A DNA stretch of 64,000 nt. It comes from Siphonodentalium dalli. Taxonomy: Eukaryota; Mollusca; Scaphopoda; Gadilida; Siphonodentaliidae. The translations under genes and the position numbers were made by a program. The DNA is taken from positions 60,646,893 to 60,710,892 of the forward strand of contig CP136067.1 of assembly GCA_032622095.1 (NCBI GenBank), written 5' to 3'. The notes under the pieces are model-generated. The model searched no databases, was not told the origin of the DNA, and worked only from the letters and a program-made list of their open reading frames with translations. Below are positions 5,407 to 42,200 of the stretch, piece by piece; the first letter of the stretch is position 1; each line of letters opens with the position of its first letter.

Positions 5407-6012
5407 TATACCCCCACTTTCGAAGAAAATGGGGGGTATACTGGATTGACTGTGTCCGTCCGTCACGCTTTCTCCGTCCGTTCGTCCGTCCGTCCATCCG
5501 ACCGACCTCATAACTCGAACAACTATGAACCAATTTCAATAATTTTTTGTATGCAATCTCCTTAGGACGGTCTCTCCGCATGATGCTAATTGTGGTTCGG
5601 TCCGACTTTTTTTTATTCAAGTTACGCCTCTTTTTCGACTTATTTTAACTTAGAAAATTCTTTCCGACTTAATAACTTTAACAAATATGAACCGATTTCA
5701 ATAATTTTTGGTATACATGCTTCTCACAATAGCCTCTCTACATGATGCGGCTAGGGATTGGCTCAGACTGTTTTTCGTAATATTACACCTCGTTTTCGAC
5801 TTATTTTGACTTAGAAAATTCTGTCTGACTTAATAACTTTAACAAATATGAACCGATTTGAATAATTTTTTCTGTACAAGCTTCTTGTGACATAATATCA
5901 ATATTATTAGTCCGAATTTTTCTTTAAAGTTAAAAATCTTTTTGGTTGAGTTTACGGATAATGCGGGTTGAATTTGCCACGGTGGGGGTATGCTAGCACT
6001 CGAGTGCACACC
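5407..6012 (+). repeat. Dispersed element with palindromic head, GTCC-rich stretch and ~160-bp tandem core
   Basis: A head pairs TATACCCCC (5407) with GGGGGGTATA (5431-5440). Next comes a GTCC/GTCCGTCC stretch at 5452-5508. Then there are about 2.5 copies of a unit containing ATGAACCGATTTCAATAA (near 5525, 5697 and 5848), so spacing averages ~161 bp. It ends near GGGGGTATGC at 5985-5995. It is not protein coding. Confidence 0.75.
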
Positions 6013-6189
6013 TCTTTTTTAATTTGATGTATTTTGTTAGCCAGCACTCTGCAGCACTAGTATTATTTTGTCATTAGACATGCCAGAGTGAAAATGCCAG
6101 CACTATCAGGCACTATTAAATATTAATTTGAGGTGAAATGCAAACCAGCACTCCTATTCAGTCATCACTTTTATTTGGCACCAGAGAGT

Positions 6190-7500: not shown

Positions 7501-7506
7501 ATTTTT

Positions 7507-8586
7507 AGTTGAGTTTTTCAAAAACTCGACTTATGGTTTGGCGAGGGACGGTTGGCGGGCGGCGGCGGGGCGGGCGGACCTAAAGAATGCCTTATAACTT
7601 TGACATTTGTGAACGGATTCAAAAAAGTTTTGGTATGGCAGTTGCTCCCAATGACTATTTACTGCCTGTAGAAAATGGGTCACGTCCAAACTTTTTTACA
7701 AGAGTTATCCATCTTAGATGCTTTTTAGTTAAGTTTACTCACGCAAATATTAACCAATTTCAACAATATTTGGTATATGAGACTCTTGCAACAATATCTC
7801 GGACGAGTTCGAAAACAAGGTTTGTCCGAATTATTTTTGCGGAGTTATGGGCCTTAGTTTGTCTATTTTTAGCAATTTTATCACTGATAGCGCGATAACT
7901 CGATGAAATATTAACCGATTTCAACAATATTTGGTATATGAGTCTCCTGCAACAATATCTCGGACGAGTTCGAAAACCAGGTTTGTCCAAATTTTTTTCG
8001 CGGAATTATGGGCCTTAGTTTGTCTATTTTTAGCAGTTTTGTCACCGATAGCGCGATAACTCGATGAAATATTAACTGATTACAACAATATTTGGTATAT
8101 GAGTCTGCTGCAACAATATCTCGGTCGAGTGCGAAAACCAGGTTTGTCCAAATGTTTTTCGCGGAGTTATGGGCCTTAGTTTGTCTATTTTTAGCAGTTT
8201 TGTCACCGATAGCGCGATAACTCGATGAAATATTAACTGATTACAACAATATTTGGTATATGAGTCTGCTGCAACAATATCTCGGTCGAGTTCGAAAACC
8301 AGGTTTGTCCAAATGTTTTTCGCGGAGTTATGGGTCTTAGTTTGTCTATTTTTAGCAATGTTATCACCGTTAGCGCGATAACTCGATGAAATATTAACCG
8401 ACCTCAACAATATTTGGTGTATGAGTGTCCTGCAAGAATATCTCGGACGATTTCGAAAACCAGGTTTGTCCAAATGTTTTTCGCGGAGTTATGGGTCTTA
8501 GTTTGTCTATTTTTAGCAATTTTATCACCATTAGCGCGATAACTCGATGAAATATTAACCGATTTAAACAATATTTGGTATATGAG
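7507..8586 (+). repeat. 161-bp satellite with palindromic head, part 1
   Basis: The head pairs GTTGAGTTTTT with AAAAACTCGAC at 7508-7531, followed by a GGCGGGCGG-rich block to about 7580. The tandem core follows: TTAACC/TTAACT anchors fall at 7750, 7911, 8072, 8233, 8394 and 8555, exactly 161 bp apart each time. Units contain CAACAATATCTCGG and GGAGTTATGGGCCTTAG. The last unit is cut at 8586 by an insertion. Several open frames on either strand here are the satellite read through and are not genes. Confidence 0.92.
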
Positions 8587-10118
8587 GGGGTGTTTATACA
8601 TTACCCGGCGAAGATCGCATTCGCTTTAGCCGGCAGCGATAACAATAGAGTGTTTATACTTCGCCGGATAAGAATTACGGCTATCCGGATACTCAGCTAT
8701 ACGGTTTTCAACTTTTGGATAAAATGATTTAGTACAAGCACCTGATTGTCGTATGGATTCTAATTCGCTCTGCGGTTAAGTTAGATGTTTATCTGGGGTC
8801 ATGCCGTCATGGGTGATTTCCTTTCAACAATTAACTCGAACAATATTATTGTGTAATCGCTGATAGACCAGCCCGCTTTTCACCTGTGTATATATTGGTC
8901 AGTGTGCCAGTTTGATTGTCTCTAATCAGCTGTCAGGTCGGTGGTCACGCACCTTGGTTATAAGCTATTATTATAAATACTAACCGATGATGGTACACGT
9001 ACTCTGCATGTGCATGGTACATTTGTTGCGCATTCGAGGGAATTAATTCATGTACATGTATGTCCATATATATATATGGAGGAAATGGGATGGCACGTTT
9101 CTATGGATTCAAACTTAATGGACAATTAGTTCAATAATCTAAATCTGAGTGTGGGACTGTTCGATCATCTTTGGAATTTATCGACTGACCGTGGTTATGG
9201 CAGGTGTGAGAATTTTTTTTTATCTGAACCCTGAAAATTGCAAAACCCTAGCATTCAGCCTTAATATTTCCAATTGTTGGACATTTTCCAAACTTGACGC
9301 ACCTCTAATAAGGTTGGATCATTTCCAACTGATGGTCATTTCAGTCCAACAATTTGGTAAAAAAATAAGCAAATGTTGCCTAAAGAAATCACCAATAACA
9401 AATTGTTGAAAATAAAACTACGAGAACAATTTCAACATATTGCTGGTGTCAAATATCCAACTATTGCCGTGTCAGGTATGAAATTTCCAGCTTTTGAATA
9501 TTTTGATTAAAGTTGGGATGAGACACCCCATCGCCACGGCCCTATATACATGGACATGGTGAACGCCCGAGTAAAATGAAAAACATATTTTATTGTATAA
9601 TGTGCAAACGGAAAATGGGTCACATTTGATTCGCGATGTTGAAACTTATATATATAATATAAAATCCAATCCGAATGATTAGACACCATTTTGTAGATGT
9701 ATGCGACGAAAAGATCTCAAAACTGACAATGGCCATGCTTTTGGTGCGACACTCACTTCACAGGCTGTATATGAATCCAAACAAACCATTAACAATGTTT
9801 TTTAAATATCTATAAAATTACCAATAGCAATACCTGAAAGTTTGAGTTGGATATTAATAATTTCAGCATTTCCATTTCTAAAAAGTTTCATTTCACTATA
9901 CTGCCCAACCATATAACAGGAAGCGGCTAGATGTTTACAGGTGTACAGCAATATCATATTGCAGTTCAGTGAGAACTAAAACAAAAACTATTAACAAGTA
10001 AAGGAGACACATGAATATATGCGTATCTTCGCCGGCGATGTGTAAACACTCTGCCCAACCTTCGCCGGCTAACGGGTTCGCCGGGTAACGGCTTCACCGG
10101 CTATGTGTAAACGTCACC
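8587..10118. mobile_element. 1,532-bp inverted-repeat element inserted in the 161-bp satellite
   Basis: The satellite reads ...ATATGAG, then foreign DNA, then TGAGTCTCTTGCAAC in register, so TGAG (8583-8586 and 10119-10122) looks like a 4-bp target duplication. The left end GGGGTGTTTATACATTACCC and the right end (read inward from 10118, GGTGACGTTTACACATAGCC) are imperfect inverted repeats. Further CCGGCGAA/TTCGCCGG boxes lie near both ends. No transposase is visible; open frames inside are short and uncharacteristic. This is a non-autonomous DNA transposon whose superfamily I cannot assign. A 3-bp GAG duplication is also possible. Confidence 0.85.
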
Positions 10119-10370
10119 TGAGTCTCTTGCAACAATATCTCAGACGAGTTCGAAAACTTGGTTTGTCCGAATTTTTTTCGCGGAGTTATGGGTCTTAGTT
10201 TGTCTATTTTTAGCAATGTTATCACCGTTAGCTTGATAACTCAATGAAATATTAACCGATTTAAACAATATTTGGTATATGAGTCTCTTGCAACAATATC
10301 TCGGACGAGTTCAAAAACCTGGTTTGTCCAAATTTTTTTTCCGGAGTTATGGGTCTTAGTTTGTCTATTT
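10119..10370 (+). repeat. 161-bp satellite, part 2 after the insertion
   Basis: The array resumes exactly where it broke off and runs for about 1.6 more units, ending abruptly in TTAGTTTGTCTATTTT next to unrelated sequence at 10371. Confidence 0.9.
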
Positions 10371-10427
10371 TAACCCTTTGAACCCTGACGCCCCACAGTG
10401 ATCGACACCCTAACCCGGGGCTCCCAG

Positions 10428-12375: not shown

Positions 12376-12790
12376 TTAGGTCAGTTGTCGACCGAATAAT
12401 GCAACTTCCGGTGTCCAGTCAGTGGCGGGGTTAATATATGTGGCTAGGGCGAATATCGGCCTTTCGTTAGACACCAAAAGGAGCCCTCGACGTGCTGTAT
12501 TCCTCGAGATATCGCCGTCCCACGCAATTTGAAATTCTGTCCCGCAGATTGTTGTTCTATCCCATATTTCATCCCATTTTAGGTCAGTTGTCGATAAAAT
12601 AATGCAACTTCTGGTGTCCGGTCAGTGGCGGGGTTAATATGTGTGGATAGGATGAATGTGGGCCTTTCGTTAGACACCGAAAGGAGCCCTCTACGTGCTG
12701 TATTCCTCGAGATATCGGCCATCCCACGCAATTTGAAATCTGTCCCGCAGATTGTCGTTTTGTCCCATATCCCATCCCATCCCGCAGATT
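12376..12790 (+). repeat. Tandem duplication of a 203-bp unit
   Basis: TTAGGTCAGTTGTCGA occurs at 12376 and 12579. Both copies continue through AATGCAACTT, GGCGGGGTTAATAT, CCTTTCGTTAGACACC, GTGCTGTATTCCTCGAGA and the CCCGCAGATTGT ending. Differences are a few substitutions per hundred bases. Confidence 0.9.
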
Positions 12791-13950: not shown

Positions 13951-13954
13951 ATCG

Positions 13955-14050: not shown

Positions 14051-14426
14051 CTGGTACATACATGTACATACGTACATACTTAGATGCAGACATATGCCGG
14101 TACATATAAGAGACAGCATGACATCAACATGATAAAGAGAAAGAGTCAAAACATCTAAGCAGTATCTGGTGCGTTGCAATTTCCAATCTTTAGTCAAAGA
14201 GTTAATTGGTGTGAAAATAACAAATGCCATATCCTGAAGCATATAATACACCTTCTTGTTTCTTATGGTCAATCGATCTTGACTTATGAACTGTCTGCAG
14301 GGAAAATTGACTGTCTCTCGTGGTGACTCACCATGAGCTACTCACAGCAATGACCTGCTGGTGGATGAGGCATAATAACAGCAGCAATGCGGCATTTTGG
14401 CGCCAGATTAAAAAAAATCCTCAGTT

Positions 14427-14513
14427 GTATATACATGATAGCTATGTTGTATACACAAGATAGCTAAGTTGTATATACAAGAGAGCTAAGTTGTATACAA
14501 AAGATAGCTAAGT
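14427..14513 (-). repeat. Minisatellite, ~23-bp unit, about four copies
   Basis: GTTGTATATACAAGATAGCT repeats about four times. It is the reverse complement of the larger array at 18009-18368. Confidence 0.9.
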
Positions 14514-14574
14514 ACGGTACAGGTTTTCCTCTGTTCTCTTCATTGCTGTCTTATCTTGTAAGAAAATTGACCGT

Positions 14575-17160: not shown

Positions 17161-17161
<1 letters not shown>

Positions 17162-18008: not shown

Positions 18009-18368
18009 CCTAGCTATCTTGTATATACAACTTAGCCATCTTTTATAGACAACTTAGCTACATGTATCTTGTATATACAACATAGCTATCTTGTACGTGT
18101 ATATACAACTTAGCTATCTTGTATATACAACTAAGCTATCTTGTATTTTCAACTTAACTATCTTGAATATACAACTTGGCTATCTTATATATACAACTTA
18201 GCCATCTTTTATAGACAACTTAGCTACATGTATCTTGTATATACAACATAGCTATCTTGTACGTGTATATACAACTTAGCTATCTTGTATATACGACTAA
18301 GCTATCTTGTATTTTCAACTTAGCTATATTGAATATACAACTTAGCTATCTTATATATACAACTTAGG
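18009..18368 (+). repeat. Minisatellite, ~23-bp unit with a ~166-bp higher-order repeat
   Basis: TTAGCTATCTTGTATATACA-type units run for 360 bases. A variant run (CTTAGCCATCTTTTATAGAC, then TTAGCTACATGTATCTTG) begins at 18031 and again at 18197. So seven or so units were duplicated as a ~166-bp block. Confidence 0.92.
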
Positions 18369-18494
18369 ATTTTTGTGCATGTGGCGCTAATATACGCTGC
18401 CATAGAAAATGGTATTTTAACTGGAAAATTCAGTAAACCACCCCACTGTATAGTGTGTGCTGCCAATGTTCAGTGTCAAGTAAAAGCATTATAT

Positions 18495-19153
18495 TATGCC
18501 CCTGACCCCCATACTGGTAGGAAGTCTCTGTCTGTCTGTCCATCTGTCTGGACATCCATCTTTCTGTCTGTCCGTCCGTCTTTCTGTATCTCTGTCCGAG
18601 CATATCACGTTGTAACCCAGGATTTAATTTTCTGATTTGGTTGTCCTTTGGCATGGTTATAGCACAGGTTGGGGGAAAGGATACCCTCATATCACAAGTT
18701 TCATTCTATATTTTTACCAGAGTTACGTCCCTTGTTTGACTTGGAAATTTATTAATTTTGTGAACATTTCAGCTTGTAACTCGTTTGTTAATTATTGGAT
18801 TTCATTGTTCTTTGGCATGATGATAGGACAGGTGGGGAAATGGATAACCACATACTACTATGGGTTTTGTCCATTATTTTTTACCCGAGTTACGGCCCTT
18901 GTTTGACTTGGAAATTTGTGAATTTAGTGTCTGTACGAACATTTCAGCTTGTAACTCAGGCATGCTTCATCGTATTTCGTTGTGCTTTGGTATGGTGACT
19001 GCACAGCTTGAGTGAAAGGATACCCACATACTACAGGTTTCGTCCATTCATTACTACCAGAGTTATGGGCCTTGTTTGACTTGGAAATTTGTTAATTTTT
19101 ACATCCAAATTGGCAAGGATAATCTGATTCTGTTGTGTTTTGGTTTGGTGATA
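18495..19153 (+). repeat. ~170-bp tandem array with CTGT-rich head, part 1
   Basis: A head with GACCCCCATACTGG and a CTGT/GTCC-rich stretch (18525-18600) precedes about three units. Each has TTTGGCATGGTNATAGCACAGG-like, GAGTTACGGCCCTTG and GACTTGGAAATTT blocks (the last at 18738, 18908 and 19078, about 170 apart). The third unit is interrupted at 19153 by the 4-kb element. Confidence 0.85.
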
Positions 19154-22100
19154 TAGTGTGGTCGTGGTACGCAAAAAAAGGGGTTGACCCGGGAGCATCT
19201 CTGCTACAACATATCCAAAATCCGCTAAAATCCAGGATCCAAGATGGCGTCCAACATGGCCGCCTTTAGTAAAAAGAGATTCTGACTGAGATTAATTCGA
19301 CATAATGAGAACAAATGTTGCCATATTTATACAAATGTAAACATTTTGCGAAGATAAAGTATTATGCCACATATCTATAGACAAAATGGAACCCCTCGCC
19401 CCAGATGGCTGCCAAAATGGCGGCCTAAACTCGAAAATTTGAAGTTTTTGTCTAATATCTTAAAGATCAATTCCTGTTGTTTGATACTGGTTCAGACTGG
19501 CGACATTGATTAGTCATATTCATGTTAATTCAGCATTGGAGCAATGAAAGATACCATAAATGGGGTCCCAGACTCATCTACACCCTCAAAAATTTGATCT
19601 TACAGAACGCGGTATAAAATTCCACAAAAATCGCCATTGGGATTCTAGTCATATATCAACAAGAAATGGACAGAACTGTACAATGTAAGTTGGGCATACC
19701 ATTATCTATAAATACTCCAATTCAATGAAACCCAAATTAGCGCTTTGTCTCAAAATGGCTGCCAAAATGGCGGTCAAAATATGGAAAATGGCAGATATTT
19801 AGAAATTAGAATGGTCGTCAAGAGGGTAAGGCCCAGAAGGAATTGGTAAAGAAGCGGTTTTGTTCTCATTCGACGCGGGATAATCTCGTGTATAACATAT
19901 CCAAAATCCGCTAAAATCCGCTTTGGGGAAAATACAAAATTCAAGATGGCGTCCAACATGGTCTCCAATAATAATGAAAATGGCAAATATGTAGTTATTC
20001 ACGAAAACACATTCGACAAAATGCCAATTCGGCACCAATACACATCATTGATTGAAATCAATGTTTTTTGTGGGTATGAGTAGCCAATCACGATTCAATA
20101 TGCTAAGATGGCTACTAAAATGGCCACCGAAAATTGTCGAAATTTAAGTTCTGCTCAGAGGAAAGCCGAAACAACACTTCGGTTGTGAGCTAACGATGGC
20201 AGACCTATTAAACATGTTGCCAATAATCTACTACCACAATCAGTTCAGCCCGTAATGTTCCAACTAAGCAGTATCTACTGCAGGATCCAACACGATGTCC
20301 ACTTACTACGAGGGACTATCTGGAAATTAATTAAAAAGAAATTAAATTGCTACGAATCTGGATTATTTGAAAACAGTGTCAATATTTCTACTTATAATGA
20401 CTATTCGGAACATCAAATATATGGGCATCGGTGGTCTAGTCCGGAAGCATCAGGCTATAATGGGTTTTCCAGTGATGGCGAAAGTGAAAAGGACAGGAGG
20501 GAAAAGCGAATAATCTGGGGTTTACTTAATTGGTGGGCAAGTTGGTTATCGGAGCTGGGGAGTTTCAAAGTAAAATCTGACCCGTAGGCGTAAAGGTATC
20601 AACCATTTAGTTTGATGAACTGGTATTTCAAGGTTGTAATTGGATAGAAATGCCACATGAACATGGTGATTAACAACATGTTTGTCTAAGAAATGTGAAC
20701 AATGAACATGTTATTTTCCAGATGCTAGACAATCAAACTGCCACACAAGGCGTTCATCCATGCTCATCAGAGCACGAAATATGTGCAAATTAATTACACA
20801 AAAACTATTTCATGCGGACGATGTACTCTAGACCTACATCCAACGTCATTTCCTATTAACTTTTATTGTTTGTACGGACGGTTTTTCGAGGTTTGAAAAT
20901 CCCGCTTGTCCAAGAAAACCTCCACATACTTACGGAGTCGATGTGTAAATAATGTATGGGGATAGTTTCTTCATACATATATGTATTTGGCACACGTATT
21001 TTCTAGAACATAAGAGATCACCATTTACCGGAGAGTTGATATCTGGGAAGAGATCAGAGTAAAACCACTTTTCTTACATGTCGAAATGGGGAATCCATGG
21101 GCTACATTTAGTTCCAGCTTGAAACTTGAAAATGATGGCCGAGCCCGAATAGTTAATATTTCGTCGCATCAGTGCTATAATGTAACCCACATTTTCAACT
21201 TTCCGAGAAAATGAAGGTTGAAGTTTTTAGTCAACATTTCTCCTAATGTTGACAAAGCATGATGTATTGTTGTTTTTATCCCAATGAAAACTGACATTAG
21301 CTGTTCATTGAACCACTTATTGTTTTCTGTTTACTCCCTCGTTTTCTTTTAAAAAGCAATAGCTTGTTTGGAGATATGACATGTTGCGTATGCCAGCGAC
21401 GATTCGTTTCCGTGCTATAATGAAGTTGTGCTAATAAATGCAGATTAATCTAAATATGGTGGCAATCGCATGTGTCTATGAACTAAAAAGTGCCTATTCT
21501 ACACTATGAAAATTCACCCATGTGCATCATCATACAGAAATGTGTGGAACAATCACAAAATTTAAATCACCAAATGATCACGTGACTAACATGGAGATAC
21601 TACCATATAGCACACATTTTAGAATTCACAAACACAAAACAGAAGCCACGTGGACAACCTGAAGCGTCCGATTGGCTGCTGTTGGACATACGACCTCATA
21701 GCACGAATAATTGTAAAGATCGCTGGAGATACTACATTTGCTTCACTGGTTTGTGTGAATATTTGTCATCCAATGCAAAGACAGTTTGGCCCATCGGATT
21801 GGATTTTTTCTCACGATTTGAATGGTATCAAATACTCATTTCCCGCCATAATGGAGTTACGACATTATAGCACTGATGCGTCGAGATTTTGTCAACCCGC
21901 GGGAAGCCACCAAAAGATTGAAAATAAATAGTTTTGATGTATATGAGCCACACGCATGTATATTAGCCAACTATCAACTGCATCCACCACTCACAACATC
22001 CATTATATGATAAGCTGGGCAGAGTCTACCATTTTCGTTTGGGAAGCCATATTAGATAAAATTTATTGTTTCTTTTGGTCTATTTGAGATGGAATGTTCA

Positions 22101-23227: not shown

Positions 23228-23690
23228 ATAGCACAGTTTGGGGGAAAGATACTGATTTACTACTGGTTTTGTCCATTCATTTTTACGGCCCTTGTTGGAT
23301 CTTGCAAATTTGTGAATTTTGTCTCTGTACAAACATTTCAGCATTTTGGGCATGGATCATCAGATACGGTTGTGCTTTGGTATGGTGATAGGCTCTGATA
23401 TCCCAGCATGTGGTAAAGGATACCCACATACAACAGGTTTTGTCCATTCATTCATCTATACCAGAGTTATAGTCCTTGTTTGACTTCGGAATTTCTGAAT
23501 TTGAAATGGTATGAAAATATCAGCTTGAAACTTGGGAATGGATCATTGGATTTGGTTGTGCTTTGGTGTATTGACAGCCCAGTTTCTTGGATTTAGAAAA
23601 TAATAATTTTCCAACCATAAAAATATATAGTATTGCCCACTCTCTAAATTGAGCGTCGTGGGCATATGCCACACTTGGCATTGCACTTGT
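23228..23690 (+). repeat. ~170-bp tandem array, part 2 and tail
   Basis: The array resumes at ATAGCACAG and runs for about two units (TTTTGTCCATTCATT, GAGTTATAGTCCTTGTTTGACTT). It ends in a tail with GAGCGTCGTGGGCATATGCC near 23652-23675. Confidence 0.8.
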
Positions 23691-27200: not shown

Positions 27201-30200
27201 TGTTTACAAAATTCAATCCATTAGCACGGGCCACAGGTCGCACTGTTCGTCTGATCATCATGAAATTTGTCATGGATGTTAATATTGACATGTAGATGGG
27301 AACGAGTTATTTTGGGGTCATTCGGCCCAAAAACATGGCCGCCAGCAGCCATCTTGGATTTTACTCTTTGTATGACTAAATTCTTTAGCACGGGCTACAG
27401 GTCGTACCTTTAGTCTGATCATCATAAAATTTGTCATGGATGTTAACAATGACATGTAGATTGGAACGAGTCATTTTGGGGTCATTCGGCCAAAAAACAT
27501 GGCCGCCAGCAGCCGTCTTGGATTTTACTCTTTGCATGACTAAATCCTTTAGCACGGGCTACAGGTCCTACTTTTAGTCTGATCATCATAAAATTTGTCA
27601 ATAATGTTAATAATCACATGTAGATGGGAACGAGTCATTTTGGGGTCATTCGGCCAAAAAACATGGCCGCCAGCAGCCAACTTGGATTTTACTCTTTGTA
27701 TGACTAAATCCTTTAGCACGGGCTACAGGTCGTACCTTTAGTCTGATCATCATAAAATTTGTCATGGCTGTTGATATTGGAATGTAGATGGGAACGAGTC
27801 ATTTTGGGGTCATTCGGACAAAAAACATGGCCTCCAGCGGCCATCTTGGATTTCAAAATTTAATCCATTAGCACGGGCCACAGGTCGTACTGTTTGTCTG
27901 ATCATCATGAAATTTGTCATGGATGATAATATTGACATGTAGATGGGAACGAGTAATTTTGGGGTCATTCGGCCAAAAAACATGGTCGCCAGCAGCCATC
28001 TTGGATTTTACTCTTTGTATGACTAAATCCTTTAGCACAGGCTACAGGTCGTACATTTATTCTGATCATCATAAAATTCGTCATGAATGTTAATAATGAC
28101 ATGTAGATGGGAACGAGTCATTTTGGGGTCATTCGGCCAAAAAACATGGCCGCCAGCAGCCATCTTGGATTTTACTCTTTGTATGACTAAATCCTTTAGC
28201 ACGGGCTACAGGTCGTACCTTTAGTCTGATCATCATAAAAATTTTCATGGCTGTTGAAATTGGAATGTAAATGGGAACGAGTCATTTTGGGGTCATTCGG
28301 ACAAAAAACATGGCCGCTAGCAGCCATCTTGGATTTCAAAATTTAATCCATTAGCACGGGCCACAGGTCGTACTGTTCGTCTGATCATCATGAAATTTGT
28401 CATGGATGTTAATATTGACATGTAGATGGGAACGAGTAATTTTGGGTGTCATTTGGCCAAAAACATGGCCGCCAGCCGCCATCTTGGATTTTACTCTTTG
28501 TATGACTAAATTCTTTAGCACGGGCTACAGGTCGTACCTTTAGTCTGATCATCATAAAATTTGTCATGGTTCTTAACAATGACATGTAGATGGGAACGAG
28601 TAATTTTGGGGTCAATCGGCCAAAAAACATGGTCGCCAGCAGCCATCTTGGATTTTACTCTTTGTATGACTAAATCCTTTAGCACGGGCTACAGGTTGTA
28701 CCTTTAGTCTGATCATCATAAAATTTGTCATGAATGTTAATAATGACATGTAGATGGGAACGAGTCATTTTGGGGTCATTTGGCCAAAAAACATGGCCGC
28801 TAGCAGCCAACTTGGATTTTACTCTTTGTATGACTAAATCCTTTACCACGGGCTACAGGTCGTACCTTTAGTCTGATTTTGGGGTCATTCGGACAAAAAA
28901 CATGGCCGCCAGTGGCCATCTTGGATTTCAAAATTTAATCCATTAGCACGGGCCACAGGTCGTACCTTTAGTCTGATCGTCATAAAATTTGTCATTGATG
29001 TTAACGATGACATGTAGATGGGAACGACTCATTTTGGGGTCATTCGGCTGAAAACATGGCCGCCAGCAGCCATCTTGGATTTTACTTTTCTCTTCATGTC
29101 TATAAACTAGTATTAGACATTCAACTTTCCACATTCCTAATCGCTCCATTGACTGTAATATATTAAATTATTCCCTTTCCAAGTTGAGCTACAGTGTCAT
29201 TGACACTTTCATTTCTGATCATCATCAAATTTGTCATGGATGTTAATATTGACATGTAGATGGGAACGAGTAATTTTGGGGTCATTTGGCCCAAAAACAT
29301 GGCTGCCAGCAGCCATCTTGGATTTTATTCTTTGTATGACTAAATCCTTTAGCACGGGCTACAGGTCGTACCTTTAGTCTCATCATCATAAAATTTGTCA
29401 TGAATGTTAATAATGACATGTAGATGGGAACGAGTCATTTTGGGGTCATTCGGTCAAAAAACATGGCCGCCAACAGGCATCTTTGATTTCACTCTTTGTA
29501 TGACTAAATCCTTTAGCACGGGCTACAGGTCGTACCTTTAGTCCGATCATCATAAAATTTGTGATGGTTGTTGAAATTGGAATGTAGATTGGAACGAGTC
29601 ATATTGGGGTCATTCGGACGAAAAACATGGCCGCCAGAGGCCATCTTGGATTTCAAAATTCAATCCATTAGCACGGGCCACAGGTCGTACTGTTCGTTTG
29701 ATCATCATGAAATTTGTCATGGATGTTAATATTGACATGTAGATGGGAACGAGTAATTTTGGGGTCATTCGGCCAAAAAACATGGTCGCCAGCAGCCATC
29801 TTGGATTTTACTCTTTGTATGACTAAATCCTTTAGCACGGGCTACAGGTTGTACCTTTAGTCTGATCATCATAAAATTTGTCATGAATGTTAATAATGAC
29901 ATGTAGATGGGAACGAGTCATTTTGGGGTCATTTGGCCAAAAAACATGGCCGCTAGCAGCCAACTTGGATTTTACTCTTTGTATGACTAAATCCTTTACC
30001 ACGGGCTACAGGTCGTACCTTTAGTCTGATTTTGGGGTCATTCGGACAAAAAACATGGCCGCCAGTGGCCATCTTGGATTTCAAAATTTAATCCATTAGC
30101 ACGGGCCACAGGTCGTACCTTTAGTCTGATCGTCATAAAATTTGTCATTGATGTTAACGATGACATGTAGATGGGAACGACTCATTTTGGGGTCATTCGG

Positions 30201-33200
30201 CTGAAAACATGGCCGCCAGCAGCCATCTTGGATTTTACTTTTCTCTTCATGTCTATAAACTAGTATTAGACATTCAACTTTCCACATTCCTAATCGCTCC
30301 ATTGACTGTAATATATTAAATTATTCCCTTTCCAAGTTGAGCTACAGTGTCATTGACACTTTCATTTCTGATCATCATCAAATTTGTCATGGATGTTAAT
30401 ATTGACATGTAGATGGGAACGAGTAATTTTGGGGTCATTTGGCCCAAAAACATGGCTGCCAGCAGCCATCTTGGATTTTATTCTTTGTATGACTAAATCC
30501 TTTAGCACGGGCTACAGGTCGTACCTTTAGTCTGATCATCATAAAATTTGTCATGAATGTTAATAATGACATGTAGATGGGAACGAGTCATTTTGGGGTC
30601 ATTCGGTCAAAAAACATGGCCGCCAACAGGCATCATTGATTTCACTCTTTGTATGACTAAATCCTTTAGCACGGGCTACAGGTCGTACCTTTAGTCCGAT
30701 CATCATAAAATTTGTGATGGTTGTTGAAATTGGAATGTAGATTGGAACGAGTCATATTGGGGTCATTCGGACGAAAAACATGGCCGCCAGAGGCCATCTT
30801 GGATTTCAAAATTCAATCCATTAGCACGGGCCACAGGTCGTACTGTTCGTCTGATCATCATGAAATTTGTCATGGATGTTAATATTGACATGTAGATGGG
30901 AACGAGTAATTTTGGGGTCATTCGGCCAAAAAACATGGCGGCCAGCAGCCATCTTGGATTTTACTCTTTGTATGACTAAATTCTTTAGCACGGGCTACAG
31001 GTCGTACCTTTAGTCTGATCATCATCAAATTTGTCATGGATGTTAATATTGACATGTAGATGGGAACGAGTAATTTTGGGGTCATTTGGCCCAAAAACAT
31101 GGCCGCCAGCAGCCATCTTGGATTTTACTCTTTGTATGACTAAATCCTTTAGCACGGGCTACAGGTCGTACCTTTAGTCTGATCATCATAAAATTTGTCA
31201 TGAATGTTAATAATGACATGTAGATGGGAACGAGTCATTTTGGGGTCATTCGGTCAAAAAACATGGCCGCCAGCAGGCATCTTTGATTTTACTCTTTGTA
31301 TGACTAAATCCTTTAGCACGGGCTACAGGTCATACCTTTAGTCCGATCATCATAAAATTTGTCATGGCTGTTAAAATTGGAATGTAGATGGGAACGAGTC
31401 ATTTTGGGGTCATTCGGACAAAAAACATGGCCGCCAGTGGCCATCTTGGATTTCAAAATTTAATCCATTAGCACGGGCCACAGGTCGTACTGTTAGTCTG
31501 ATCATCATGAAATTTGTCAAGGATGTTAATATTGACATGTAGATGGGAACGAGTAATTTTGGGGTCATTCGGTCAAAAAACATGGCCGCCAGCAGGCATC
31601 TTTGATTTCACTCTTTGTATGACTAAATCCTTTAGCACGGGCTACAGGTCGTACCTTTAGTCAGATCATCATAAAATTAGTCATGGCTGTTGAAATTGGA
31701 ATGTAGATGGGAACGAGTCATATTGGGGTCATTCGGACAAAAAACATGGCCGCCAGAGGCCATCTTGGATTTCAAAATTCAATCCATTAGCACGGGCCAC
31801 AGGTCGTACTGTTCGTCTGATCATCATGAAATTTGTCATGGATGTTAATATTGACATGTAGATGGGAACGAGTAATTTTGGGGTCATTCGGCCAAAAAAC
31901 ATGGTGGCCAGCAGCCATCTTGGATTTTACTCTTTGTATGACTAAATTCTTTAGCACGGGCTACAGGTCGTACCTTTAGTCTGATCATCATCAAATTTGT
32001 CATGGATGTTAATATTGACATGTAGATGGGAACGAGTAATTTTGGGGTCATTTGGCCCAAAAACATGGCCGCCAGCAGCCATCTTGGATTTTACTCTTTG
32101 TATGACTAAATCCTTTAGCACGGGCTACAGGTCGTACCTTTAGTCTGATCATCATAAAATTTGTCTTGAATGTTGATAATAACATGTAGATGGGAACGAG
32201 TCATTTTGGGGTCGTTCAATCAAAAAACATGGCCGCCAGCAGGCATCTTTGATTTTACTCTTTGTATGACTAAATCCTTTAGCACGGGCTACAGGTCGTA
32301 CCTTTAGTCCGATCATCATAAAATTTGTCATGGCTGTTGAAATTGGAATGTAGATGGGAACGAGTCATTTTGGGGTCATTCGGACAAAAAACAATGGCCG
32401 CCAGTGGCCATCTTGGATTTCAAAATTCAATCCATTAGCACGGGCCACAGGTCGTACTGTTCGTCTGATCATAATGAAATTTGTCATGGATGTTAATATT
32501 GACATGTAGATGGGAACGAGTAATTTTGGGGTCATTCGGCCTAAAAACATGTGGCCAGCAGCCATCTTGGATTTTACTCTTTGTATGACTAAATTCTTTA
32601 GCACGGGCTACAGGTCGTACCTTTAGTCTGATCATCATCAAATTTGTCATGGATGTTAATATTGACATGTAGATGGGAACGAGTAATTTTGGGGTCCTTT
32701 GGCCCAAAAACATGGCTGCCAGCAGCCATCTTGGATTTTACTCTTTGTATGACTAAATCCTTTAGCACGGGCTACAGGTCGTACCTTTAGTCTGATCATC
32801 ATCAAATTTGTCATGAATGTTAATAATGACATGTAGATGGGAACGAGTCATTTTGGGGTCATTCGGCCAAAAAACATGGCCGCCAGCAGGCATCTTTGAT
32901 TTTATTCTTTGTATGACTAAATCCTTTAGCACGGGCTACAGGTCGTACCTTTAGTCCGATCATCATAAAATTTGTCATGGCTGTTAAAATTGGAATGTAG
33001 ATGGGAACGAGTCATTTTGGGGTCATTAGGACAAAAAACATGGCCGCCAGTGGCCATCTTGGATTTCAAAATTTAATCCATTAGCACGGGCCACAGGTCG
33101 TACTGTTAGTCTGATCATCATGAAATTTGTCATGGATGATAATATTGACATGTAGATGGGAACAAGTAATTTTGGGGTCATTCGGCCAAAAAACATGGCC

Positions 33201-36200
33201 GCCAGCAGCCATCTTGGATTTTACTCTTTGTATGACTAAATTCTTCAGCACGGGCTGCAGGTCGTACCTTTAGTCTGATCATCATAAAATTTGCCATGGA
33301 TATTAACAATGTCATGTAGCTGGGAACGAGTAATATTGGGGTCATTCGGCCAAAAAACATGGTCGCCAGCAGCCATCTTGGATTTTACTCTTTGTATGAC
33401 TAAATCCTTTAGCACGGGCTACAGGTCGTACCTTTAGTCTGATCATCATAAAATTTGTCATGAATGTTAACAATGTCATGTAGCTGGGAACGAGTAATAT
33501 TGGGGTCATTCGGCCAAAAAACATGGTCGCCAGCAGCCATCTTGGATTTTACTCTTTGTATGACTAAATCCTTTAGCACGGGCTACAGGTCGTACCTTTA
33601 GTCCGATCATCATAAAATTTGTGATGGTTGTTGAAATTGGAATGTAGATTGGAACGAGTCATATTGGGGTCATTCGGACGAAAAACATGGCCGCCAGAGG
33701 CCATCTTGGATTTCAAAATTCAATCCATTAGCACGGGCCACAGGTCGTACTGTTCGTCTGATCATCATGAAATTTGTCATGGATGTTAATATTGACATGT
33801 AGATGGGAACGAGTAATTTTGGGGTCATTCGGCCAAAAAACATGGCGGCCAGCAGCCATCTTGGATTTTACTCTTTGTATGACTAAATTCTTTAGCACGG
33901 GCTACAGGTCGTACCTTTAGTCTGATCATCATCAAATTTGTCATGGATGTTAATATTGACATGTAGATGGGAACGAGTAATTTTGGGGTCATTTGGCCCA
34001 AAAACATGGCCGCCAGCAGCCATCTTGGATTTTACTCTTTGTATGACTAAATCCTTTAGCACGGGCTACAGGTCGTACCTTTAGTCTGATCATCATAAAA
34101 TTTGTCATGAATGTTAATAATGACATGTAGATGGGAACGAGTCATTTTGGGGTCATTCGGTCAAAAAACATGGCCGCCAGCAGGCATCTTTGATTTTACT
34201 CTTTGTATGACTAAATCCTTTAGCACGGGCTACAGGTCATACCTTTAGTCCGATCATCATAAAATTTGTCATGGCTGTTAAAATTGGAATGTAGATGGGA
34301 ACGAGTCATTTTGGGGTCATTCGGACAAAAAACATGGCCGCCAGTGGCCATCTTGGATTTCAAAATTTAATCCATTAGCACGGGCCACAGGTCGTACTGT
34401 TAGTCTGATCATCATGAAATTTGTCAAGGATGTTAATATTGACATGTAGATGGGAACGAGTAATTTTGGGGTCATTCGGTCAAAAAACATGGCCGCCAGC
34501 AGGCATCTTTGATTTCACTCTTTGTATGACTAAATCCTTTAGCACGGGCTACAGGTCGTACCTTTAGTCAGATCATCATAAAATTAGTCATGGCTGTTGA
34601 AATTGGAATGTAGATGGGAACGAGTCATATTGGGGTCATTCGGACAAAAAACATGGCCGCCAGAGGCCATCTTGGATTTCAAAATTCAATCCATTAGCAC
34701 GGGCCACAGGTCGTACTGTTCGTCTGATCATCATGAAATTTGTCATGGATGTTAATATTGACATGTAGATGGGAACGAGTAATTTTGGGGTCATTCGGCC
34801 AAAAAACATGGTGGCCAGCAGCCATCTTGGATTTTACTCTTTGTATGACTAAATTCTTTAGCACGGGCTACAGGTCGTACCTTTAGTCTGATCATCATCA
34901 AATTTGTCATGGATGTTAATATTGACATGTAGATGGGAACGAGTAATTTTGGGGTCATTTGGCCCAAAAACATGGCCGCCAGCAGCCATCTTGGATTTTA
35001 CTCTTTGTATGACTAAATCCTTTAGCACGGGCTACAGGTCGTACCTTTAGTCTGATCATCATAAAATTTGTCTTGAATGTTGATAATAACATGTAGATGG
35101 GAACGAGTCATTTTGGGGTCGTTCAATCAAAAAACATGGCCGCCAGCAGGCATCTTTGATTTTACTCTTTGTATGACTAAATCCTTTAGCACGGGCTACA
35201 GGTCGTACCTTTAGTCCGATCATCATAAAATTTGTCATGGCTGTTGAAATTGGAATGTAGATGGGAACGAGTCATTTTGGGGTCATTCGGACAAAAAACA
35301 ATGGCCGCCAGTGGCCATCTTGGATTTCAAAATTCAATCCATTAGCACGGGCCACAGGTCGTACTGTTCGTCTGATCATAATGAAATTTGTCATGGATGT
35401 TAATATTGACATGTAGATGGGAACGAGTAATTTTGGGGTCATTCGGCCTAAAAACATGTGGCCAGCAGCCATCTTGGATTTTACTCTTTGTATGACTAAA
35501 TTCTTTAGCACGGGCTACAGGTCGTACCTTTAGTCTGATCATCATCAAATTTGTCATGGATGTTAATATTGACATGTAGATGGGAACGAGTAATTTTGGG
35601 GTCCTTTGGCCCAAAAACATGGCTGCCAGCAGCCATCTTGGATTTTACTCTTTGTATGACTAAATCCTTTAGCACGGGCTACAGGTCGTACCTTTAGTCT
35701 GATCATCATCAAATTTGTCATGAATGTTAATAATGACATGTAGATGGGAACGAGTCATTTTGGGGTCATTCGGCCAAAAAACATGGCCGCCAGCAGGCAT
35801 CTTTGATTTTATTCTTTGTATGACTAAATCCTTTAGCACGGGCTACAGGTCGTACCTTTAGTCCGATCATCATAAAATTTGTCATGGCTGTTAAAATTGG
35901 AATGTAGATGGGAACGAGTCATTTTGGGGTCATTAGGACAAAAAACATGGCCGCCAGTGGCCATCTTGGATTTCAAAATTTAATCCATTAGCACGGGCCA
36001 CAGGTCGTACTGTTAGTCTGATCATCATGAAATTTGTCATGGATGATAATATTGACATGTAGATGGGAACAAGTAATTTTGGGGTCATTCGGCCAAAAAA
36101 CATGGCCGCCAGCAGCCATCTTGGATTTTACTCTTTGTATGACTAAATTCTTCAGCACGGGCTGCAGGTCGTACCTTTAGTCTGATCATCATAAAATTTG

Positions 36201-39200
36201 CCATGGATATTAACAATGTCATGTAGCTGGGAACGAGTAATATTGGGGTCATTCGGCCAAAAAACATGGTCGCCAGCAGCCATCTTGGATTTTACTCTTT
36301 GTATGACTAAATCCTTTAGCACGGGCTACAGGTCGTACCTTTAGTCTGATCATCATAAAATTTGTCATGAATGTTAATAATGACATGTAGATGGGAACGA
36401 GTCATTTTGGGGTCATTCGGTCAAAAAACATGGCCGCCAGCAGGCATCTTTGATTTTACTCTTTGTATGACTAAATCCTTTAGCACGGGCTACAGGTCGT
36501 ACCTTTAGTCCGATCATCATAAAATTTGTCATGGCTGTTAAAATTGGAATGTAGATGGGAACGAGTCATTTTGGGGTCATTCGGACAAAAAACATGGCCG
36601 CCAGTGGCCATCTTGGATTTCAAAATTTAATCCATTAGCACAGGTCGTACTGTTAGTCTGATCATCATGAAATTTGTCAAGGATGTTAATATTGACATGT
36701 AGATGGGAACGAGTAATTTTGGGGTCATTCGGCCAAAAAACATGGCCGCCAGCAGGCATCTTTGATTTCACTCTTTGTATGACTAAATCCTTTAGCACGG
36801 GCTACAGGTCGTACCTTTAGTCCGATCATCATAAAATTTGTCATGGCTGTTGAAATTGGAATGTAGATGGGAACGAGTCATATTGGGGTCATTCGGACAA
36901 AAAACATGGCCGCCAGAGGCCATCTTGGATTTCAAAATTCAATCCAATTAGCACGGGCCACAGGTCGTACTGTTCGTCTGATCATAATGAAATTTGTCAT
37001 GGATGTTAATATTGACATGTAGATGGGAACGAGTAATTTTGGGGTCATTCGGCCTAAAAACATGCGGCCAGCAGCCATCTTGGATTTTACTCTTTGTATG
37101 ACTAAATTCTTTAGCACGGGCTACAGGTCGTACCTTTAGTCTGATCATCATCAAATTTGTCATGGATGTTAATATTGACATGTAGATGGGAACGAGTAAT
37201 TTTGGGGTCATTTGGCCCAAAAAACATGGCCGCCAGCAGCCATCTTGGATTTTACTCTTTGTATGACTAAATCCTTTAGCACGGGCTACAGGTCGTACCT
37301 TTAGTCTGATCAACATAAAATTTGTCTTGAATGTTGATAATAACATGTAGATGGGAACGAGTCATTTTGGGGTCGTTAGATCAAAAAACATGGCCGCCAG
37401 CAGGCATCTTTGATTTTACTCTTTGTATGACTAAATCCTTTAGCACGGGCTACAGGTCGTACCTTTAGTCCGATCATCATAAAATTTGTCATGGCTGTTG
37501 AAATTGGAATGTAGATGGGAACGAGTCATTTTGGGGTCATTCGGACAAAAAACAATGGCCGCCAGTGGCCATCTTGGATTTCAAAATTCAATCCATTAGC
37601 ACGGGCCACAGGTCGTACTGTTCGTCTGATCATAATGAAATTTGTCATGGATGTTAATATTGACATGTAGATGGGAACGAGTCATTTTGGGGTCATTCGG
37701 CCTAAAAACATGCGGCCAGCAGCCATCTTGGATTTTACTCTTTGTATGACTAAATTCTTTAGCACGGGCTACAGGTCGTACCTTTAGTCTGATCATCATC
37801 AAATTTGTCATGAATGTTAATAATGACATGTAGATGGGAACGAGTCATTTTGGGGTCATTCGGTCAAAAAACATGGCCGCCAACAGGCATCTTTGATTTT
37901 ACTCTTTGTATGACTAAATCCTTTAGCACGGGCTACTGGTCGTACCTTTAGTCCGATCATCATAAAATTTGTCATGGCTGTTAAAATTGGAATGTAGATG
38001 GGAACGAGTCATTTTGGGGTCATTAGGACAAAAAATATGGCCGCCAGTGGCCATCTTGGATTTCAAAATTTAATCCATTAGCACGGGCCACAGGTCGTAC
38101 TGTTAGTCTGATCATCATGAAATTTGTCATGGATGATAATATTGACATGTAGATGGGAACGAGTAATTTTGGGGTCATTCGGCCAAAAAACATGGCCGCC
38201 AGCAGCCATCTTGGATTTTACTCTTTGTATGACTAAATTCTTCAGCACGGGCTGCAGGTCGTACCTTTAGTCTGATCATCATAAAATTTGTCATGGATAT
38301 TAACAATGTCATGTAGCTGGGAACGAGTAATATTGGGGTCATTCGGCCAAAAAACATGGTCGCCAGCAGCCATCTTGGATTTTACTCTTTGTATGACTAA
38401 ATCCTTTAGCACGGGCTACAGGTCGTACTTTTTGTCTGATCATCATAAAATTTGTCAAGAATGTTAATAATGACATGTAGATGGGAACGAGTCATTTTGG
38501 GGTCAGTCGGCCAAAAAACATGGTCGCCAGCAGCCATCTTGGATTTTACTCTTTGTATGACTAAATCCTTTAGCACGGGCTACAGGTCGTACCTTTAGTC
38601 TGATCATCATAAAATTTGTCATGGCTGTTGAAATTGGAATGTAGATGGGAACGAGTTATTTTGGGGTCATTGGGACAAAAAACATCGCCGCCAGCGGCCA
38701 TCTTGGATTTCAAAATTTAATCCATTAGCACGGGCCACAGGTCATACTGTTCGTCTGATCATCATGAAATTTGTCATGGATGATAATATTGACATGTAGA
38801 TAGGAACGAGTAATTTTGGGGTCATTCGGCCAAAAAACATGGCCGCCAGCAGCCATCTTGGATGACTAAATTCTTTAGCACGGGCTGCAGGTCGTACCTT
38901 TAGTCTGATCATCATAAAATTTGTCGTGAATGTTAATAATGACATGTAGATGGGAACGAGTCATTTTGGGGTCATTCGGCCAAAAAACATGGCCGCCAGC
39001 AGCCAACTTGGATTTTACTCTTTGTATGACTAAATTCTTTAGCATGGGCTACAGGTCGTACCTTTAGTCTGATCGTCATAAAATTTGTCATGGATATTAA
39101 CAATGTCATGTAGCTGGGAACGAGTAATTTTGGGGTCATTCGGCCAAAAACATGGCCGCCAGCAGCCATCTTGGATTTTACTTTTCTCTTCATGTCTTTT

Positions 39201-42200
39201 AACTAGTATTAGACATTCAACTTTCTACATTCCTAATCGCTCCATTGACTGTAATACATTAAATTATTCCCTTTCCAAGTTGAGCTACAGTGTCATTGAC
39301 ACTTTCATTTAGATTCGCTTGCGTTCGATATTGGTTGTAAAACCCTTAATTTTATGTGTCTACAACTCACAATATTTTCATAGTAAATTCCTTATTTGGT
39401 ATGTAACATAATTGCCATAAGTTAGGAGAAAAGAATAACTTGATTGAAAAATATTCACATCTTTGCAAGAACAATTTTTTCTGTCTAAACATTTCCAAAT
39501 CATGAAGTGGTTAGCTGGATTTTGAACCGACAGCGGGTAGTATGGGTCGATTAAAATAAAATTTGGTGTGATTTGAATGTGATTGTTGATGGCGCCAATA
39601 ATTTGATCTTTGCCTTCCACAGCGCAATGGAACATTTTCATTGGACAGATCGTAGCCATCTTGGATTTTACTCTTTGCATGACTAATTCCTTTGGCACGG
39701 GCTACATGTCGTGCCTTTGGTCGGATCATCATGAAATTTATCATAGATGTTATGGGGCCATTCGGCCATAAAACATGGCCTCCGGCAGCGATCTTGGATT
39801 TTACTCTTTGGATGACTTTTCATCACTCCATTCATTGCTCATCACAACAATTTAACTTATTCCCAAGTTGAACTACAGTGTCATTGACACTTTTATTAAA
39901 TTTTGCAGGCACGATTGTGATCATCTGTAGATGTGAGCTATCGAATTTGAATGATTTTCAATGAGAACCATCTTGGATTTTACTCTATGCATGACTAAAT
40001 CCCTTGGCGCAACCTACAGAGCACATCCCTCATCCGATCATCACCAAACTTCATATGAATCTTCGGGGTAACCTGTAGATGGGAGCCTCCTATTTTTACC
40101 TAAATTTGTTGAAAAACATGGCCGCCAGCGCCATCTTGGAATTTACTCTTTGTATGACTAAATCCTTCAGCTCATCCTACAGGCCACATCTCTCATCCAA
40201 TCATTACCAAACTTCATATGGATCTTTGGAGTGACCTCTAGATGGGGGCCTTCTATTTTGACCGAATTTTTTTTTTAAACATGGCCAACAGCAGCCGTCT
40301 TTTATTTCAAATTTGAATCCATCGGCACACACTGCAACCTGCATTTATTGGAGAATTTATTTGAAAATTTATAAGCATGTTTAGAATCACCTCTAGTTGG
40401 GAGCTATACAATTTGAACAATTTTCAATGAAAGACATGGCCGCTGGCAGCCATCTTGGATTTTACTCTTTGTATAAATCATTTGGCACACACTACAGACC
40501 ACATCCCTCATCTGGTGATCACCAAAATTAATTTGAATCTTCGGAGTGACCTGTAGATGGGAGGCTCTAATTTTTACCAAAATTCGTTGAAAAACATGGC
40601 CACCAGTGGCCATCTGTGAATTTACATTTTGTATGACTAAATCCTTTGGCACACTCTACAGACCACATCCCTCATCCTATCATCACCAAACTTTTTATTG
40701 ATCTTCGGGGTGACCTCCAGATGGGAGCCTCCTATTTTGACCGAAATTCATAGAAAAACATGGCCGCCAATGGCCATCTTGGATTTTACTCTTTGCATGA
40801 CTAAATCTTTCAGTGCAGCCTACAGGCCACATCCCTTATCCAATATTCACCAAACTTCATATGGATCTTCGGGGTGACCTCTAGATTTGAGTCATCGATT
40901 ATTTCTGAAATTTGTTATAAAACATGGCTGTCAGCAGCCATCTTGGATTTCAAATGGAAACCATCCGCACACCCTGCAGCCTACATTTTATTGGTGAAAT
41001 GTTTGAAATGAAAATAATTTCATCTACACAATACAAGACCTTTATTGTAACTTTTTGCTCTCCTTCTTCTTTATCATTCTATTCATTGCTCAGTAAAAAA
41101 TAAACTCCTTCCCAAGTTGAGCTACAAGCGTACAAATGTGACAATAACATGCAATTAATATACGCAATATTTATGATTGGTATAAAAACAAATTCCATCT
41201 ATTATTTCTTATTCTATCTATTTAGTGGATGTGACTATTTTAACAGCAATACCCACCGCGAAGGCCACCCGTATCTTTAAGCTTACTTGATTGGCATTTC
41301 ATCCACATTGTTATTTAAAACATTCCTGGTATTTTCAGATTTTCACCGATAAAACTTTTGGGGGTGGGTCCCCAATTTCCCTTGGAAAAAACTTGCATTG
41401 GAGGGGTGGGTGTCCGAAAAACTAGTTTATCAAATCTTGATGATAGTCAGTATTAAAGCATGTTTAACTCAAGGTTGGCTTAAACAAAAGAACCCATTGA
41501 TGTGATCGATAATGATCACAGTCCAATGAGTTCTCTACTTAATAGCTGGTATGCCAAGAGAGGGTGACAGAACCCAGCTCTTGTTAGCTCAACTTTACTA
41601 GATGGGAGCCATCAAATTTTTCCAAATTTTGTTTAAAAACATGGCTGTCTGCAACCATCTTTGATTTTAATTTATAAATATGTTCCCATCTAGTATTACT
41701 TAGACTTTTAACTTTCTGCATTCCTAATCGCTCTATTGACTGTAACACATGAAAGTATCCCCTCTCCAAGTTGAGCTACAGCTACAATGTCATTGACACT
41801 TTTTCTTGTTTTGCTATGTGTACTGGCACGAGAATATTGTTGTTGGGCGATAAAAATCACTTATTTGTTTTACAATTGTTCGCTCTTTTTATTCTAACAG
41901 TTCAGCAGCTTCTAATGAATTACAAGATGAGTATATGGAAGAGGTCAGAGGCAAGATGTCTGCGAGTCGTCGAACCTTTTGTTTGATATGTACCTTTGAC
42001 TTAGGATTCTCCTTCTTGTTTTGGATAATTTATTCACAGGTGCGTATCACTAACCCTTTGTCAGGTGAGTACATTATATATGATGTCATAATATATTTTG
42101 CAAATAAACTGAATAATATTGTAACAATCGCCTATTGTAACAAATAAATCATACAACAACATTATTTAAAGCATGAATCAATGTAAATAATAAAGATAAT

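Follow-up and report, generated by a model that had tools for sequence, protein, structure and literature searches.

HINEs, the non-autonomous Helentrons, are known from the Pacific oyster (Cg_HINE) and from Drosophila (DINE-1), and the available parts of the two papers on which our statements about these systems draw describe the HINE layout, T-rich insertion, a GTCY microsatellite and a tandem core of ~160 bp (Vojvoda Zeljko et al. 2020, PMC7492417; Thomas et al. 2014, PMC4067079). Canonical Helitrons, by comparison, start with 5' TC, end with 3' CTRR and insert at A|T (PMC4067079). The oyster authors could not tie their HINEs to autonomous Helentrons, and for some elements they infer that the repeats were acquired independently (PMC7492417). 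Here, we analyse tandem arrays within a 64,000-bp stretch of the Siphonodentalium dalli genome (the window; C7:60646893-60710892, in an assembly of 2.23 Gb and nine contigs), and conclude with high confidence that they represent rolling-circle transposons without coding capacity, belonging to several families of the HINE type known from oysters and flies. The families are new, the kind is already known; what is also new is the kinship of cores between families that differ in their ends, together with a composite array of ~78 monomers and two copies with a repeated terminal module.

Layout and recurrent ends of the families

The window families are named A (5407, 5.4 kb), B (7505, 7.5 kb), C (18494, 18.5 kb), D (25461, 25.4 kb) and E (59.6-59.7 kb), with F, P and G denoting cores of HINEs nested elsewhere and H a HINE family at Helentron loci. 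Families A-D share one order, comprising a 5' subterminal repeat, a GTCC- or GC-rich stretch, the tandem core, an inverted 3' subterminal repeat and a palindrome of 12-15 bp, followed by a terminus that reads CTTG|T in A, B and C and TTCA|T in D. The 5' subterminal inverted repeat (subTIR) and its inverted 3' copy are TATACCCCCAC and GTGGGGGTATG in A, GTCGAGTTTTT and AAAAACTCGAC in B, TATGCCCCC and GGGGGCATA in C, and TAGCTCAACTT and AAGTTGAGCTA in D. An inverted repeat (IR) complementary to the adjacent 5' subTIR is clear in A, B and D and weaker in C, a GTCY-type microsatellite follows the head in A, C, D and F, and the palindromes between 3' subTIR and terminus are GCACTCGAGTGC (A), GCATCTTAGATGC (B), TGCCATGCTTGGCA (C) and AGTGTCATTGACACT (D). 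The elements lack canonical Helitron features, starting with TT or TA and ending with CTTG or TTCA, then T, and the longest ATG open reading frame (ORF) spans 45-103 aa across six window elements or element parts. The features of the window are as follows.

5407..6017 (+): complete family A HINE
5407-5417 (+): family A 5' subTIR TATACCCCCAC, with an inverted partner to ~5440
~5454-5505 (+): family A GTCC-rich stretch
5497-5899 (+): family A core
5982-5992 (+): family A 3' subTIR GTGGGGGTATG
5996-6007 (+): family A palindrome GCACTCGAGTGC; the terminus, at 6017, has a single mismatch relative to the consensus
7505..8590 (+): 5' part of a family B HINE, with subTIR/IR head TTAGTTGAGTTTTTCAAAAACTCGACT
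~7540-7580 (+): family B GC-rich GGCGG stretch, followed by core-like sequence at 7594-8586 in 161-bp units
8591..10118 (no strand): insertion within the family B core, a separate element of the terminal inverted repeat (TIR) type, read directly from the letters
10119..10374 (+): family B core, resuming past the insertion
18494..19160 (+), right limit approximate: old family C HINE, with head TTATGCCCC... and GTCT/GTCC stretch
18591-19099 (+): family C core, units of ~173 bp
23228..23689 (+): additional family C copy; core 23228-23585, 3' palindrome and terminus 23667-23689 with 2 mismatches
25461..26471 (+): family D HINE D1, with head TTAGCTCAACTTTACTTTGTAAAGTTTGAGCTA, GTC/GT-rich stretch and first core array
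26472..29211 (+): family D HINE D2, carrying both a head and a tail, the latter at 29181-29211
26591..39185 (+): family D core in a composite array of ~78 units, each 164 bp
39652..40986 (+): older family D subfamily with D2-type core; tail 39870-39895
41584..41804 (+): minimal family D copy with head start, less than half a core unit and tail
59573..59789 (+): family E, a decayed B-like core

Most of this agrees with the first-pass annotation, which had proposed from the window alone that the elements placed at 5407, 7507, 18495 and 25462 share a layout with tandem cores of ~160-175 bp. Indeed, Tandem Repeats Finder (TRF) gives periods of 161 bp (7745-8586), 173 bp (18634-19098) and 164 bp (25558-26252 and 26591-39182), and 161-bp monomers are present in the 5.4 kb core, for which TRF gave no row. 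The heads lie at 5407, 7505, 18494 and 25461, with clear palindromes in the first, second and fourth, in line with the three palindromic heads that had been described. The weak blocks that it had listed are likewise present, with GAGTTATGG at 7842, 8164, 8325, 8486, 19060 and 59761, that is in the 7.5, 18.5 and 59.7 kb families, and AACCGATTTCAA at 5690 and 7913, in the 5.4 and 7.5 kb families. The matching ends attributed to one family, D, recur at 25462, 26473 and 41585 (TAGCTCAACTT) and at 29181, 30334, 39277, 41114 and 41768 (AAGTTGAGCTA), and the minimal copy also proved real (41584..41804). No 3' end was found for the window family B copy (10119..10374) or for the window family C copy at 18.5 kb, and no ends for the family E relic (59573..59789).

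Whether ends are constant between loci had been named beforehand as decisive for the shared architecture, and in genome-wide copies of families A-D, at unrelated loci, they recur (genomic DNA searches scored the best 40 candidates per query). In family A, the matches of all 39 other scored copies start at query base 1 and end at base 610-632, with 94-97% identity, and the ends, TTATACCCCCAC...GGGGGGTATACTGG at 5' and GTGGGGGTATGCTAGCACTCGAGTGCACACCTCTTG|T at 3' with minor variants, are seen in 20/20 fetched copies and the window copy; flanks vary, two of the 20 sharing theirs (A_L004/A_L010). All 40 scored family B matches start at query base 1-3, and both ends, the 3' one being AAAAACTCGAC...GCATCTTAGATGCGTACCCCTTG|T, are present in 11 of 15 copies (14 fetched plus the window copy; B_L027/B_L028 share flanks). 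Family C is older, with 75-79% identity to the window copy, and its ends are TTATGCCCC... at 5' and GGGGGCATATGCCATGCTTGGCATTGCACTTG|TT-like at 3', the latter seen in L071, L076 and L077 out of ten copies fetched. Family D copies are 80-85% identical, with ends TTAGCTCAACTT...AAGTTTGAGCTA and AAGTTGAGCTACAGTGTCATTGACACTTTCA|TT; the tail is present in 12/14 fetched copies and head plus tail in 4/14 within the stretch fetched. Patterns of the 3' ends, at ≤1 mismatch, occur 2,416 times (A) and 1,221 times (B) genome-wide, at least 49 of the latter within two tandem arrays, and the reversed patterns not at all.

The composite family D array comprises ~78 units of 164 bp (26591-39182) with higher-order periods of 319 and 483 bp. 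It contains heads at 25461 and 26472 and tails at 29181, 30334 and 39277, being broken by tails at 29186-29211 and 30339-30364 and closed by one at 39282-39307. As read by eye rather than computed, D2 (26472-29211) is apparently inserted at a T run inside a D1 core unit, and a 1,153-bp stretch ending in the tail appears to have been duplicated behind D2.

A second type of array is formed by the 3'-terminal module of family B, which is 28 bp long and is repeated 19 times in one copy and at least 44 times in another:

C1:6110700-6112600 (L096, 6.11 Mb): family B copy with terminal array
C1:6546400-6549300 (L097, 6.55 Mb): family B copy with terminal array

The unit consists of the palindrome plus GTACCCCTTG, at a spacing of mostly 28 bp, and one head and core precede the array. 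Past the arrays lies a G-rich minisatellite in which GTACCCCTTG recurs, once and six times, respectively, and the first 700 bases of one piece, from the flank into the core, are 92% alike between the two loci. No more than one terminal module was seen in the 14 other fetched family B copies or the window copy. Since the unit boundary falls at CTTG, a sequence found at the terminus and again immediately ahead of the palindrome (CTTGACATAG), the arrangement suggests that the arrays arose by slippage or mis-termination between CTTG copies. We claim no priority for such arrays.

We also note further repeats in the window. The element at 8591-10118 is ~1.5 kb long, with inverted ends GGGGTGTTTATAC... 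and ...GTAAACGTCACC, repeated TTCGCCGG motifs and TGAG flanking both sides. The family C copy at 23228-23689, with its 3' end, was absent from the first-pass annotation. Unrelated minisatellites lie at 18007-18367, 14423-14513 and 62275-62569, the last being a 21/42-bp array near the window end; the other two consist of a 22-bp TAGCTATCTTGTATATAC-type unit, oppositely oriented at the two sites, and 18007-18367 also shows a 166-bp period. Two-copy tandem repeats are found at 12376-12780 and 46153-47010, with units of 203 and 431 bp, and GAGTTATGG occurs at 46566, yet a core-match scan gave no match there.

Relationships among the tandem cores

Cores were compared by circular local alignment in all 28 pairs against 300 dinucleotide shuffles, using consensus monomers built from distinct monomers for A (n=39), B (n=63), C (n=32), D (n=57) and F (n=9), and single copies for P, G and E. 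The observed score was reached by no shuffle for 11 of the 28 pairs (B-E, A-B, B-P, C-F, A-E, A-G, F-P, A-C, A-F, A-P and B-F) and by one shuffle for B-C and F-G. Weaker pairs follow, with 5 (D-F and P-G), 6 (B-G), 8 (C-P), 13 (E-P) and 14 (E-G) shuffles reaching the score, and E-F (30), C-E (33) and C-G (37) are not significant alone. Reverse-strand scores equal background. The cores A, B, P, C, F and G align circularly in one phase and on one strand, with two conserved blocks, GATTTCAA...TTTGGTAT and GAGTTAT..CCCTTT; a text search of the literature for the block sequences returned no repeat-related title among the matches listed. In a second control with 400 random window segments, A-B, A-F, B-P and A-G were unreached from either side and B-F and B-C were reached once from B; C comparisons were reached twice from C, with C scores up to 780, probably via the second C copy at 23228, which had been left unmasked among the segments.

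Cores A, B, C, E, F, P and G thus show significant similarity as one linked set, partly through transitivity. The first-pass annotation had proposed related cores across the window families, and this holds for A, B, C and the 59.7 kb relic in the shuffle tests, the relic being similar to B and A (0/300 each) but decayed and, compared with C on its own, not significantly similar (33/300). The 25.4 kb core lends the proposal no support. In comparisons of D with A, B, C, E, G and P, at least 54 of 300 shuffles each reached the score. The D-F link, reached by 5/300 and 9/500 shuffles (D2-F by 3/500), was dropped because 6, 11 and 19 of 400 random window segments reach the D-F and D2-F scores in three of the four comparisons, so that it lacks specificity. 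Family D is therefore not demonstrably related to the other families in its core, and stands apart there, not in layout. For the interior of a family H copy compared with core B, 5/200 shuffles reach the score, and more do so in its other comparisons.

These relationships bear on the possibility that the cores were captured independently as satellites, with the common blocks arising by convergence on nucleosome length or composition. Such capture is inferred in the available part of the oyster study for some elements (PMC7492417), and it would fit the D core, which is not securely related, the family H HINEs, which were read without such an array, and the several core pairs that are non-significant alone. 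Convergence does not readily account for the common phase and strand in which A, B, C, F, P and G align circularly, for 11/28 pairs unreached by shuffles or for reverse-strand scores at background, and we consider this explanation improbable. Rather, most of the ~160-base tandem cores appear to be linked by descent, even where the ends of the elements are unlike, and for most cores their similarity across such families favours inheritance or exchange over capture.

Insertion sites and autonomous Helentrons

A T directly follows the terminus in 21/21 family A, 11/11 family B and 4/4 family D copies, and a T directly precedes the element in all 21 family A copies. Flanks were joined for 36 copies with both ends recognisable (21/21 A, 11/15 B and 4/14 D), and an empty site was recorded where a match extends at least 15 bases beyond the junction on both sides, with up to three crossing matches inspected per construct. 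Eight of the 36 pairs, representing seven sites from families A and B only, match other sequence of the fetched set across the junction, and no target-site duplication is seen in any of the alignments inspected for these eight pairs. The cleanest empty sites are those of B_L031, where two paralogs (98.3 and 97.5%) cross the junction without gained or lost bases, and of A_L022; at B_L024 the T run differs by one base.

Candidate partners were sought with a PF14214 profile search of the genome, which gave 151 matches (best 150 of 457 candidates scored). At C8:4872338-4879993 (L001:1339-8994; hereafter H0), an uninterrupted ORF of 2,552 aa shows matches above the Pfam cut-off to OTU, DUF6570, Helitron_like_N and PIF1. 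At this locus, the predicted domains correspond to the Helentron arrangement of Rep-helicase and C-terminal endonuclease with OTU (PMC4067079), the endonuclease match being weak. Ten further loci (H1-H10) with weaker Rep matches and long ORFs were taken, with H0, as Helentron-type, the Pfam scan covering H0 only. The H0 protein matches pieces of H1-H8, but not H9 or H10; for the C-terminal part of this protein, matches were obtained at H1 and H3-H8, seven of the ten loci. The pieces span ~3.4-7.4 kb upstream and 4-9.3 kb downstream, with the locus middle covered for H0 only, and at these 11 loci the A, B or D ends were all seen within HINE copies, which are either nested in the locus or situated upstream of its ORF. 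At two loci whose ORFs span 1,674 and 1,645 aa, 9.9 kb of sequence each gave no exact match to the head motif of A, B or D.

Three candidate features of the Helentron loci were rejected. Core-like repeats upstream of Rep ORFs were first taken as intrinsic, but the arrays that can be placed, which are only part of these tracts, sit in elements with their own head or tail: F in H7 and H8, G in H1 and, placed differently, in H0, and P in H4-H6 with a degraded head. A 3' terminus downstream of the H0 ORF, considered as the end of the Helentron itself, was taken instead as that of a nested family H HINE whose head was found 1.4 kb upstream; with this terminus as query, 5/40 scored matches run through and 30 of the 35 others stop at query positions 158-162, CTTG ending at 159. 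Membership of H0 in a tandem pair was tested and found unsupported. A search for the 5' boundary of the Helentron loci gave 16 matches and no dispersed boundary. We note that family H, with ends TAGCTCACC... and GGTGAGCGA...CAGTCATTGACTGTCTTG|TT that resemble D and a TTTAGCTCACCTGAG-like head, is both nested in Helentron loci (copies at L002:1224-2658 and L101:1264-2811) and dispersed. The copies read are ~0.4-1.6 kb long and contain no ~160-bp array, and the 3' part of this family yields 2,256 first-look candidates genome-wide.

The first-pass annotation had taken the families for a new-looking superfamily. One new superfamily with its own mechanism, outside Helentrons, would be in keeping with the B and D ends, which are unlike the TATACCCCC type, with cores related across unlike ends and with the failure to find an autonomous partner with matching ends. 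It is very unlikely, as the HINE features tested are found here, including duplication-free insertion and the subTIR-palindrome 3' end, and as the same layout is already published, in the accessible parts of the two papers, for the Helentron-mobilised elements Cg_HINE and DINE-1 (PMC4067079, PMC7492417). A new superfamily is not supported because layout, T-rich insertion, GTCY microsatellite and ~160-bp core had all been described. The alternative raised in the same annotation, that the families belong with pearl or Helentron-like elements, was right in kind; its suggestion of an autonomous partner led to the 2,552-aa Helentron-type ORF, but to no autonomous element with matching ends in the pieces of the 11 loci. 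Miniature inverted-repeat transposable elements moved by a cut-and-paste transposase, the former class of pearl and DINE-1, would likewise be short and non-coding with inverted repeats near both ends; the asymmetry of the ends, with a palindrome lying outside the 3' subTIR, and the lack of duplication at the empty sites read leave this assignment scarcely plausible. Ordinary satellite arrays hit by chance insertions of unrelated short elements might be expected from a 12.6-kb window array with higher-order periods, but have next to no probability given the constant order and orientation of head, core and tail in the complete copies read and the recurrence of the A and B 3' ends, which number in the hundreds to thousands across the genome.

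Several observations weigh against the assignment to HINEs with kindred cores. Family B carries GGCGG repeats instead of GTCY, the core of family D is not securely tied to any other, and C-E, C-G, E-F, C-P and B-G are among the core pairs not significant alone. At the insertion sites, TA rather than TT follows the terminus in 2/21 family A copies, the A_L017 and B_L032 empty-site matches are weak (71-76% identity), and B_L033 has seven extra bases adjoining the junction. At A_L022 and A_L004/A_L010 the joined flanks exceed the empty site by one T; either one 3' T would belong to the element or the T run would have varied. The Exo_endo_phos match of H0 (E 8e-4, 19.6 bits) lies below the curated cut-off of 24.5, and the pieces flanking the 11 Rep loci contain no autonomous element with matching family ends.

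Proposed mechanism and comparison with known systems

The function of the 3' palindrome in such elements is termination. We suggest that a Helentron Rep-helicase-endonuclease protein, acting in trans, would copy one strand from the 5' end until copying halts at the 3' palindrome, and that the product would then join a T-rich target. Core copy number could change via replication slippage or unequal exchange, whereby an element may grow into a satellite-like array, as proposed for family D in the window, and termination would perhaps be imperfect, as in the family B copies with 19 and at least 44 terminal modules. A bolder and rather unlikely idea starts from a single ancient two-block core of ~160-175 bp. 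HINE families would have retained this core, with its phase and orientation unchanged, while their ends became too different to recognise as related (TATACCCCC and TAGTCGAG types), since the core would serve rolling-circle copying in cis, perhaps as a site for Rep binding or for starting the second strand; the widespread molluscan satellites would be its by-products. If this were true, the tandem arrays of the 3'-terminal module would directly record termination that had failed.

Non-autonomous Helentrons have been proposed to seed satellite DNA, and a single window here holds several families, from old to recent, one of them grown to ~78 units in a composite array, with the genome providing defined ends for families and empty sites for two (A and B). 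This combination makes two questions testable. One is whether an element passes on its tandem core or acquires it afresh; the other is which autonomous Helentron mobilises the HINEs, a point also left unresolved in the accessible part of the oyster study (PMC7492417). The 3'-terminal module arrays, in turn, offer a way into studying the termination of rolling-circle transposition.

Compared with DINE-1 and other HINEs of Drosophila and a mite, as far as the available part of that study describes them, the present elements share the subTIR, IR, microsatellite and central repeats as well as the 3' stem-loop, TT insertion and non-coding nature; in contrast, autonomous Helentron partners with near-identical ends are described there (PMC4067079), whereas none was found here in the pieces of the 11 loci. 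Internal repeats of ~160 bp are also shared with the bivalve pearl family (CvA, DTC84, MgE) and the satellites BIV160 and Cg170. In the part of the source available, BIV160 and Cg170 are reported to have two well-conserved motifs in common despite their divergence (PMC5139131), to which the two blocks of the cores here are likened by description only. There is also a close resemblance, in described architecture rather than in a comparison of sequences, to Cg_HINE, which likewise has a 5' subTIR of 11-12 bp with a nearby complementary IR, a microsatellite that is often GTCY, central repeats of mostly 140-180 bp, a palindrome after the 3' subTIR, duplication-free insertion into T-rich DNA and a fixed orientation of core to ends (PMC7492417). 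The differences, again with respect to the available part of the oyster paper, are threefold: tandem 3'-terminal modules are present here and were not found described there, the composite window array reaches ~78 units compared with a reported oyster maximum of 29.3, and most cores here are related across unlike ends, whereas seven of 11 oyster elements carry unrelated repeats (PMC7492417).

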